Source: Candidatus Peribacteria bacterium (GTDB taxonomy: Bacteria > Patescibacteriota > Gracilibacteria > Absconditabacterales > Absconditicoccaceae). From it: DNA of 32,123 nt. The notes beneath the pieces were generated by a model. That model did no database searches and was not told where the DNA came from. It saw nothing but the letters and a program-made list of their open reading frames with translations. A program made the position numbers and the translations under genes. The stretch is taken from the NCBI GenBank assembly GCA_031276875.1, contig JAISMG010000027.1:1-32123 (forward strand), read 5' to 3'. Positions 28,636 to 32,123 of this stretch are shown here, one piece after another (the first letter of the stretch is position 1; each line of letters begins with the position of its first letter).

Positions 28636-29412
28636 ATGTTAAATTCTAAAGAAAGTCGCCTGACCAGTATTGGAGGGTGCGTAATCCTGATAGGATTATT
28701 TGTGTTTGTTTTGTCGTGTGGAAATTCTTCTCATAGACAACTTGTAGTGGATAGTCAACCCGTAGAAAAAACGGAACTGCAAAGTACAAGAAGAATTGAT
28801 AGTACTTTGGTTGTTTGGAAACAAGAATTGATAGAGTCCTCACAGGCAATCTTGGAAGACATCAATAGACAGTTAGTTGGGCAAGAAAAAGCTGTAGAAA
28901 AAGTTGAGATGATTATATCTAACTACCAAGACAAGTCTCGGAGAATCAACAAATTGCACAATAATCATCTCTATGTGTATTGTGCTCATAATCCTCAATA
29001 TAAAATTGTAAAGGGTTATGCTAACTCCTCCGATAATGGCGAGTATGATCTGTTTCAGCAATCCGGATTTGTCAGATTATATTTAGAGCTTAATGGTGAA
29101 AAACCAGAAAGCTTTAAATTTATGTCTGAAATAGACGGTTTCGCAAAAGAAATTGGTATTGAGACTAGATTTATGAACGGAACTAAGTTCCGTAATATCA
29201 AAATCACTCCAGAAATGGACAAGTGTCAGAAAGACCGTGAAGATGAATTATTGTCTTTGTCCAATCAAACGATTGCTGCGTTAAGTATGGGCAATTTGGA
29301 AGAAGTGTTAGATTTGTTGGAACAAAAAGAAATCTATGAGATGAGAAAGGAAGAAGCTTCTGAAAAGATTAAAGAAATTCGTGCAAATTATGGGGAAAAC
29401 TTCCCATATTAG
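28636..29412 (+). CDS. Lipoprotein of unknown function
   Basis: A 258-residue lipoprotein. After MLNSKESRLTSIGG comes a hydrophobic segment (CVILIGLFVFVLSCG) ending in a lipobox-like VLSC, then a Ser/His linker and a helical region (VVWKQELIESSQAILEDINR, QLVGQEKAVEKVEMIISNYQ) that may form a coiled coil. The middle (HLYVYCAHNPQYKIVKGYAN, FVRLYLELNGEKPESFKFMS) looks like a small alpha/beta domain, and the C-terminus is charged and helical. No UGA codons; family not recognised. It has its own promoter box after the rpsB terminator, and overlaps the next membrane-protein gene by 23 bases, so the two are probably made together. Confidence 0.75.
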   Translation: MLNSKESRLTSIGGCVILIGLFVFVLSCGNSSHRQLVVDSQPVEKTELQSTRRIDSTLVVWKQELIESSQAILEDINRQLVGQEKAVEKVEMIISNYQDKSRRINKLHNNHLYVYCAHNPQYKIVKGYANSSDNGEYDLFQQSGFVRLYLELNGEKPESFKFMSEIDGFAKEIGIETRFMNGTKFRNIKITPEMDKCQKDREDELLSLSNQTIAALSMGNLEEVLDLLEQKEIYEMRKEEASEKIKEIRANYGENFPY

Positions 29413-30217
29413 TGTACGATCGGTATTCCGAAAAATAGGTATCATATCACTGATATCTATTTTTTCTTTCTTTACTATTTATATTTGGATACTCTTTATT
29501 TTCATCATAATAGATATGTATAAAAAAACGCTTTCACTTGCAAGCAATAAGGAAATAATTATACTCCTAACTATCAGCTTTATTTTTTGTTTTCCAATGT
29601 CTGAAAACCTGACTCCAAATACTTGGGAACATTATCTTCCGAGTAGTTCAGAAAAAAAACAAGCAGTGCTGATGTATATGTTCGTAGGACTTCTGCTTTC
29701 TCTGGGACAACAAGAAGTTTCCCCCTATATGCATCACCACATAAAACAATCAATGGGTTGGATAGTACTTTTGGTGACGACTATTTTTTTGGATGTGATG
29801 TTGTTTATTTTTGGGACTATTCTGTGGAGTGGATTTTCTGTATTAGCAGGACTGATTACTATTCCTATTTTGGTGTTGGGGATACTGTGTGTCAAGCAAG
29901 CACGAGATGGAAACTATCAACGAGACACCAACGGTGCGATGAAATTCTTTTCAGGATTTGCAGGATTGGGGAGTCGAGTGCTTAATCTCTTTGATGCAGA
30001 CCATTATCAAAAAATAGACCTACCTTCATCTTCTCCAATGTCTTCTGTTCCCTCTTCTCCTGTGCAACAACCAACTTCAGCTCAACCTGTCTCAGAAAAT
30101 GGACTTGAAAATCCCCAACAAATCCCTATAACTACTCCTGCCTCAGAGATTGACCTTTCGCAATATGCGATGAATGCGGGAAATGAAAGCCCCACTTCCT
30201 CTGAAAAAGCAGCATAA
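29390..30217 (+). CDS. Multi-pass membrane protein, DUF4870-like
   Basis: A 275-residue protein with about five membrane segments: IGIISLISIFSFFTIYIWIL, EIIILLTISFIFCF, AVLMYMFVGLLLSLG, IVLLVTTIFLDVMLFIFGTI and FSVLAGLITIPILVLGILCV. The region KKQAVLMYMFVGLLL...SPYMHHHIKQSMGWIVLL resembles DUF4870/TM2-adjacent small membrane families (tentative). The last 80 residues are a Pro/Ser/Gln-rich tail (SSSPMSSVPSSPVQQP). The start is ambiguous: ATG 29390 was chosen, with GTG 29381 and ATG 29516 also in frame. No UGA. It ends 37 bases before tsf, so tsf may be partly expressed by readthrough. Confidence 0.7.
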   Translation: MGKTSHISVRSVFRKIGIISLISIFSFFTIYIWILFIFIIIDMYKKTLSLASNKEIIILLTISFIFCFPMSENLTPNTWEHYLPSSSEKKQAVLMYMFVGLLLSLGQQEVSPYMHHHIKQSMGWIVLLVTTIFLDVMLFIFGTILWSGFSVLAGLITIPILVLGILCVKQARDGNYQRDTNGAMKFFSGFAGLGSRVLNLFDADHYQKIDLPSSSPMSSVPSSPVQQPTSAQPVSENGLENPQQIPITTPASEIDLSQYAMNAGNESPTSSEKAA

Positions 30218-30254: not shown

Positions 30255-31049
30255 ATGAAAATTGATATGAACCTTATTAAAGAGCTGAGAGATACGACCT
30301 TTGCTCCGTTAGGAGACTGTAAGTCAGCTCTAGAAGTAGCAGAAGGAGACCTTCAAAAAGCTATAGAAGTATTGAAAGAAAAAGGTATAGCCAAAGCAGG
30401 AAAAAAAGCTGACCGTGAAACCAATGAAGGAATGGTGAAAATTGAAACCAAAGAGGGAAAAACGGTTGGGTTGAAATTACTCTGTGAAACGGATTTTGTT
30501 GTGAAAAACGAACATTTCCAAACCTTATTCCAAACGATTATGGATAAACTTTTTACGGTGCAAGAAAATGTAAATAGTTTTGAGGCACTTGCTCCTGAGT
30601 TGCAAACGGAAATTAACGGATTGATTACGGATTTTGTAGGAAAAATCGGTGAAAATGTGAAAGTGGGAGCGGTATTGATTACCACAGAAAACGTATACGG
30701 ATACAATCATCCCGGAAATAAAGTTGCATCAGTGGTATATTATACGGGAAGCGAAGAAATTGCCAAAGAACTTGCTCTCCAAGTCGCTGCGATGAACCCA
30801 ACCTATCTTACCTTTGACGAAGTATCAGCAAGTGAAAAAGAAACCCTAAAAGCAAAATTCACTGAAGAACTCAAAGCAGCTGGGAAACCTGAAGCAATGA
30901 TTGAAAATATTGTGAAAGGGAAACTGGATAAAGCTTTTGCTGAAGAGGTGCTTTTGGAACAAGAATATATTCGCGACTGTGCACAAAAAGTAAAAACTTT
31001 GCTTACTGATGGGTTTACCATTACCAAATTTGTCAGATTTGCTATCTAA
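30255..31049 (+). CDS. tsf: Translation elongation factor Ts
   Basis: A 264-residue guanine-nucleotide exchange factor for EF-Tu. The N-terminal UBA-like domain reads MNLIKELRDTTFAPLGDCKSALEVAEGDLQKAIEVLKEKG (family: LRExTGAGMMDCKKAL); the usual TGAGMM is TTFAPL. The core shows ETDFVVKNEHF, corresponding to the conserved CETDFVARNxxF, and the later ELALQVAAMNPTYLTFDEV. Start at the ATG 30255, with TTTTTATCTTA at 30229-30239. Length is near the norm. It follows the membrane gene by 37 bases and precedes the S6-S18 fusion gene by 93. Confidence 0.96.
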   Translation: MKIDMNLIKELRDTTFAPLGDCKSALEVAEGDLQKAIEVLKEKGIAKAGKKADRETNEGMVKIETKEGKTVGLKLLCETDFVVKNEHFQTLFQTIMDKLFTVQENVNSFEALAPELQTEINGLITDFVGKIGENVKVGAVLITTENVYGYNHPGNKVASVVYYTGSEEIAKELALQVAAMNPTYLTFDEVSASEKETLKAKFTEELKAAGKPEAMIENIVKGKLDKAFAEEVLLEQEYIRDCAQKVKTLLTDGFTITKFVRFAI

Positions 31050-31142
31050 TTACGTCGGCTAACGAACTACATAATGTATCTAACCCTCCATAATCTCTTA
31101 TGGAACGTCGCAGGACGACCTTTTATTTCTCCTTGTTAATCT

Positions 31143-31700
31143 ATGAAACAGTATGAATTGGTGTTGATGCTCAATGTTTCCGTTGCGGAAGCAGAGAGAA
31201 AAAAATTCTTATCTGAACTTGAAAGCAAATTCAATGTATTGGATAAAGATGAAATTTGACTGAAAGAAGTGCTTTTCCCTCTCAAAGGTGGAGCAAAGCA
31301 AGTGTACTTTCTTTCTTACAAGGTGGAACTTTCTTCCACAGACATTGCAAATTTGAAACAGTATCTTTTGTACAATCCAAATCTGATAAGATATGAAATC
31401 TTTGCGAGAAATGCAAATCAGGATTTTTTCCATTTTGATACATTGCAAACAGTCTTTCAGCAAGCGATTGAAGATATTAAGGAAAAAAAGTATGGACAAA
31501 AAGTAGACTTTTTTACGCATAAAGCCAACGAGAAATATCTCAACTGGAAATCTGTAGTGATATTAAAATATTATCTTACGAGATTTGGAGATATCAAACC
31601 AAGGATTTATACGGGAAATTCAGTAAAAATTCAAAAAAAGCTGAGAACAGAAATTTTGAGAGCAAGAGGATTTGGTCTATTGCCTTTCATTAGTAAATAA
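31143..31700 (+). CDS. rpsF-rpsR: Fused 30S ribosomal proteins S6 and S18
   Basis: A 185-residue protein with two ribosomal domains in one frame. Residues 1 to about 92 are S6: MKQYELVLMLNVSVAEAERK, then EIGLKEVLFPLKGGAKQVYFLSYKV (family: EDWGRRQLAYPIxKxxxAHYVLM), NLIRYEIFAR. The glycine of that WGRR position is a UGA (31257-31259). After a helical linker (QTVFQQAIEDIKEKKYGQ), residues about 126-185 are S18: YLNWKSVVILKYYLTRFGDIK (family IDYKDxxxLxxYITExGKI), PRIYTGNSVKIQKKLRTEI, LRARGFGLLPFI (IKRARxLxLLPF). S6 and S18 form a dimer on the 30S platform, so fusion places partners in fixed stoichiometry. The usual ssb between them is absent. It precedes rpmH by 36 bases. Confidence 0.92.
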
Positions 31701-31736
31701 TGTTTTCATCCCTTTATATCATCAATTTTATTACAA

Positions 31737-31889
31737 ATGGCTAGTAAACTTCGTAGAATTAGAAAATACAATCGAACGTCCAGAATGAGAAAACACGGAT
31801 TTCGTTCCAGAATGTCGGATTGGACAGGTCGTAGAGTGCTTGCAAGACGCAGAGCAAAAGGAAGAAAAAGACTGACGGTTCAGAGATAA
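31737..31889 (+). CDS. rpmH: 50S ribosomal protein L34
   Basis: A 50-residue basic protein too short for the usual gene-length cutoff. It shows the L34 signature: [28 protein letters not shown]. The ATG is at 31737 and TAA at 31887-31889. In most bacteria rpmH sits next to rnpA and dnaA; here it follows S6-S18, and no rnpA is seen before the terminator. Confidence 0.95.
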
Positions 31890-31922
31890 GTTTTGTTTTG
31901 GACAACAACAGTACGTTGGAAG

Positions 31923-31948
31923 AATAGCGATGCTTTTCGCTATTTTTT
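31923..31948 (+). terminator. Rho-independent terminator after rpmH
   Basis: AATAGCGA (31923-31930) pairs with TCGCTATT (31937-31944), loop TGCTTT, followed by T's. It closes the tsf/rpsF-R/rpmH transcript. Confidence 0.9.
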
Positions 31949-31967
31949 GTTTGTGGAAATAAAAAAA

Positions 31968-31991
31968 GGTTAATTATCAAACAAAATGCAC
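31968..31991 (-). repeat. Dispersed intergenic motif, copy 3
   Basis: Read on the minus strand: GGTGCATTTTGTTTGATAAT followed by TAACC, matching the copies at 6875 and 16801. Confidence 0.5.
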
Positions 31992-32123
31992 CAAAGAGGT
32001 AATTAAGTGAGATAAGAACTAGGAAACATTGTTTAAATAGTAAGTAAACAATATCAATGCTGAGGTATATTGAGGATTTTCCTCGGTTTACTATTTATTT
32101 TTGTTTCTACTTCTTTTATATAT
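31992..32123. other. Window end, inverted repeats but no gene
   Basis: ATTGTTTA (32028-32035) and TAAACAAT (32045-32052) are an 8-bp inverted repeat, and GAGGA/TCCTC (about 32072-32084) a second small hairpin. They could belong to a promoter, operator or terminator of a gene beyond the window. Confidence 0.35.

Follow-up and report, generated by a model that had tools for sequence, protein, structure and literature searches.

The window, by which the whole analysed stretch of 32,123 nucleotides is meant, corresponds to contig C9 of a draft genome (1.23 Mb, 68% complete). Near its end lies a single gene on the plus strand, in which the coding regions of ribosomal proteins S6 and S18 are joined head to tail, flanked by genes for an elongation factor and a further ribosomal protein. 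The features are as follows.

30255..31049, plus strand: tsf (EF-Ts), the next gene upstream (Pfam EF_TS, E 1.7e-44)
31143..31700, plus strand: rpsF-rpsR fusion gene (bS6-bS18), from the code 25 frame, Pfam matches and 30 relatives
31149..31403, plus strand: S6 domain, residues 3-87, beta-alpha-beta-beta-alpha-beta (Pfam PF01250, AF2, Foldseek)
31257..31259, plus strand: in-frame TGA encoding Gly39, a glycine invariant across the fused family (translation, alignment)
31404..31529, plus strand: linker, residues 88-129, consisting of the S6 tail and then the junction KKxGQKxxFF (alignment A1, AF2, codon-position bias)
31530..31682, plus strand: S18 domain, residues 130-180 (PF01084, genome and protein searches)
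31737..31889, plus strand: rpmH (L34), the next gene downstream (Pfam Ribosomal_L34, E 1.5e-13)

Further upstream, two uncharacterised ORFs occupy 28636-30217, between rpsB and tsf, which usually adjoin; one (258 aa) is lipoprotein-like and the other (about 280 aa) resembles a membrane protein.

The fused gene and its two domains

Translated with table 25, positions 31143-31700 form an open frame of 185 aa with an ATG start and a TAA stop. Codon 39 is the sole in-frame TGA of the gene, and reading with table 11 leaves just a 143-aa frame starting at 31269. As a practical warning, annotation with the standard code truncates the fused gene at codon 39 and yields an apparent fragment. The earlier note had placed both S6 and S18 signatures within this one code 25 frame, and the frame itself, Pfam, the relatives and profile comparisons all bear this out. 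In the Pfam check that it had proposed for the 185-residue protein, S18 scored above its cut-off; S6 was matched below its cut-off and became firm via the relatives.

Positions 1-89 of the 90 in the Pfam S6 profile (PF01250) align to residues 3-87 (E 2.2e-4), with a score of 21.8 bits against a gathering threshold of 27 bits, and the protein is likewise under the curated cut-off of the NCBIfam model TIGR00166. At the level of its sequence, the S6 domain is divergent. Its identity is secure because of the 30 aligned relatives, the predicted S6 fold and the Foldseek matches. For each of the 30 fused proteins, which make up alignment A1, both families give a match with E <= 0.01 (1.1e-17 for the best S6 match), and the profile of these proteins matches solved chains of bS6 at 4e-9 to 1.8e-7 and of bS18 at 5e-11. 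An AF2 model with two input sequences, the window protein and one relative, gave the S6 topology with pLDDT of about 80, with strands at residues 2-11, 31-42, 53-63 and 81-89 and helices at 16-29 and 65-76. In Foldseek searches with this predicted fold, bS6 chains rank top, with TMt of about 0.65-0.83 to most of the bacterial bS6 listed. The domain therefore resembles bS6 (rpsF) in its full-domain match and fold, but differs in that its C-terminal tail continues into S18 and its sequence falls below the curated cut-offs.

The S18 half passes both cut-offs, with 46.1 vs 21 bits for Pfam PF01084 (residues 130-180, E 5.2e-12) and 44.3 vs 38.75 bits for NCBIfam TIGR00165. The C-terminus is intact, as was originally noticed, with LRARGFGLLPFI in the region of residues 172-183. 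AF2 modelled this half with low confidence from the two-sequence input (mostly pLDDT < 50). In the window protein the Lys of the IKRAR motif is replaced by Leu; almost every aligned relative of the order, whether fused or unfused, has Leu or Ile there. R175, the final Arg of the motif, is invariant among aligned members. We take these Lys and Arg residues to be K60 and R63 of E. coli S18. Compared with bS18 (rpsR), the core, the RNA-binding C-terminus and the last Arg of IKRAR are thus kept, whereas the fused S18 has no start codon of its own, carries the linker in place of its N-terminus and has Leu or Ile for the IKRAR Lys. The hydrophobic residue at the K60 position prompts the question of whether the matching 16S site has also changed.

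Between the domains, AF2 predicts a helix at residues 98-113, inside the S6-tail part of the linker. The KKxGQKxxFF junction, conserved in the window's clade, takes the place of the S18 N-terminus; G118, K120 and F123 are kept in at least 90% of the fused proteins in A1, and the junction Gly is present in 28 of 30 fused genes. The share of changes falling on third codon positions in the fused set is 0.57 in the linker and 0.60 in both the S6 and S18 cores. This equal bias indicates that the linker is translated and selected in the joint frame.

Distribution and origin within the order

The sample of the window's order comprised 49 genomes, all of one family. S18 was detected in 47 of them, and the two without an S18 match are drafts from the window's genus. 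Each of the 47 has exactly one S18 match, and profile searches found a second S18 gene in none. A single-frame S6-S18 gene is carried by 30 of the 47 genomes, spread over 11 genera and including one assembled as a single contig (G280). In one further genome (G285, locus L064) the joined gene lacks one A from an A-run, which places S6 and S18 in different frames; we attribute this either to an error in the assembly or to a break that happened recently. The remaining 16 genomes are unfused, five having rpsF-ssb-rpsR and 11 having rpsF and rpsR adjacent without ssb.

A profile search of the window's own genome likewise found only one S18 match, the fused gene. Because that genome is 68% complete, the single-copy argument leans mainly on the relatives. 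The earlier note had named two findings that would speak against a fusion. The first, a separate rpsR combined with a sequencing error, is contradicted by the single S18 match and by the sharing of the fusion among relatives. The second, relatives with two separate genes, does exist in the 16 unfused genomes, yet these lie outside the fused clade and represent ancestral or intermediate states. As the genome's only copy, the S18 of the fusion must, judging from gene content, serve the ribosome. The fusion is a clade marker inside the order.

The known form of this operon is rpsF-ssb-rpsR or rpsF-priB-rpsR. The window locus shares with the former the order of S6 before S18, and basal relatives keep that operon, but at the window locus ssb is missing and both genes are joined. 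When rpoB trees were rooted with members of the class to which the order belongs, the lineages with ssb at the locus (G240, G265, G266, G269 and G270) lay near the base, followed by the adjacent state. The main fused clade contains 29 genomes (SH-aLRT 99), including the two without detected S18 and G285. All genomes without ssb at the locus are compatible with one clade (rpoB AU test, p 0.65).

Four of the five rpsF-ssb-rpsR genomes carry at least one additional ssb elsewhere, and in the window's own genome ssb is located on contig C20 and absent from the fusion locus. The suggestion that the intervening ssb was lost along with the fusion therefore holds: the gene is gone at the locus and found elsewhere. 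In several genomes (G257, G258 and G272 among them) the adjacent rpsF and rpsR share a frame with a single stop codon between them. An origin in two steps, ssb loss and then frame joining, is shown by comparative genomics of these loci. In the first step, ssb between rpsF and rpsR was lost while another ssb copy was kept, leaving the two genes adjacent; in the second, loss of the rpsF stop and the rpsR start joined the frames.

Recurrence of the fusion and the role of the TGA code

One origin for every fusion of the order is rejected by the AU test (p 3.5e-5). The fusion of G255 has a different linker, and its grouping with the main fused clade is rejected (AU p 2.2e-5). The linker of G262 is also a different one and carries an ATG close to the junction. 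Union of G262 with the main clade is allowed (AU p 0.49), for which reason it was left out of the count of independent fusions.

Outside the window's order, S6-S18 fusions of 192-199 aa occur in five of six genomes of an order in another class, that of G030 (loci L082-L086). Both domains exceed the Pfam cut-offs there, with PF01250 scores of 47.8-75.4 bits. In three of these five genomes the fusion adjoins a ruvX/yqgF-like gene. The G030 order is distant from the window's order on rpoB, and a common origin of their fusions would need ssb to have been reinserted, since basal members of the window's order keep rpsF-ssb-rpsR. The separate positions of G255 and of the G030 order bring the number of independent fusions to at least three. 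It is likely that S6-S18 fusions arose separately at least three times in the phylum, in the main SR1-type clade, in G255 and in the G030 order, each a permanently covalent unit of the 30S platform, with ssb loss having been permissive in the window's order. Among the S18 frames listed from 379 genomes across the phylum, those outside the fused groups have at most 140 residues. One candidate, a 262-aa frame in G120, was rejected as an S18 fusion, being an ordinary rpsF-ssb-rpsR locus with ssb and rpsR in frame around a TAG.

Code 25, the single family and the genome size suggest that the window's order is Absconditabacterales (SR1). UGA encodes glycine in Absconditabacteria (PMC8080830, PMC8629427). 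Reassignment of an old rpsF TGA stop to Gly was considered as a cause of the fusion and rejected, as TGA already occurs within genes of unfused relatives in the order, whose rpsF genes stop at TAA or TAG. The G030 order uses the standard code, having no TGA within rpoB frames and TGA at the expected stops of neighbouring genes, so the UGA code is not required for fusion. Gracilibacteria BD1-5 are a sister code 25 lineage; a search for them among those members of the phylum sample that have larger genomes found none with in-frame TGA in rpoB.

The probable fate of the fused chain on the ribosome, and its possible regulation

To our knowledge, a ribosomal protein is almost always a chain of its own. 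Heterodimerisation of S6 and S18 is among the classic steps in the assembly of the 30S subunit. In E. coli the two proteins heterodimerise before binding the rRNA-S15 complex (PMC4647458). We consider it most likely, with a probability of roughly 0.8, that in the window's genome S6 and S18 form one chain of two-step origin that is a whole covalent heterodimer on the 30S platform. The chain would stay whole and assemble as this S6:S18 unit, with the linker of roughly 40 residues bridging the cores of S6 and S18. The same two partners form one unit in the E. coli S6:S18 heterodimer, but there they are separate non-covalent chains that act on leader RNA, while no such leader was found at the window locus (PMC4647458). 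If the chain is whole, a fixed 1:1 stoichiometry follows logically; that the ribosome contains the chain intact, and that stoichiometry or assembly gains by it, is what we infer.

The long linker of about 42 residues, flanked by two compact domains, could instead mark a precursor, in which a protease cuts the linker and releases separate S6 and S18 into the ribosome. This appears improbable, given that S6 contacts S18, making a cut unnecessary, that a helix is predicted in the linker, and that the linker sequence, conserved inside the main clade, has no motif in common with the linkers of G255, G262 or the G030 order. It is very unlikely that S18 is also made alone, whether through initiation inside the gene or because some ribosomes terminate at a TGA in the junction and then restart. 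The junction Gly codon is TGA in 11 of the 30 fused genes, and an ATG is present in some linkers, but most of the other junction codons are GGN, and TGA is an ordinary Gly codon across the fused genes (56 of 225) that is already sense in the order's unfused relatives. In addition, 10 of the 30 fused linkers contain no in-frame ATG, GTG or TTG, and no start codon is conserved across the set, so a means of translating S18 by itself is not conserved; in the window gene the single possible start in the linker is a TTG within the S6 tail. In a draft genome that is 68% complete, one might suspect faulty assembly or sequencing, or a degenerate extra copy beside working genes elsewhere. Such an explanation has a negligible probability, as the same fusion is shared by 30 genomes from 11 genera, among them the single-contig one, and a second S18 is present in none.

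Both families are known; what is new is their joined form, its recurrence and the route through ssb loss. No description of an S6-S18 fusion was found in the open-licence literature, and protein databases may already contain the architecture uncommented. A normally separable pair of the ribosome has repeatedly been turned into one permanent part. A natural covalent S6:S18 in dozens of genomes with close unfused relatives offers a test of whether dimerisation limits assembly, and lets one ask how stoichiometry holds and why joining recurs in reduced genomes.

The S6:S18 pair of E. coli represses rpsF through a leader RNA, and K60 of S18, which touches C719/C720 of 16S rRNA and the rpsF leader, matters for the leader (PMC4647458). 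The idea that the fusion might alter such autoregulation has so far gained no support: Rfam families gave no plausible match at 30900-32123, and the K60 position is Leu. A separate observation is the pattern TCGGC(G/T)...TATCTA, with a variable middle, at 31054-31083 and in the gaps between tsf and the fusion in relatives (L033-L040). It recurs in the window's genus and in g215, and a stricter form of it has one other site only in the window's own genome. This pattern is possibly a leader or promoter element.
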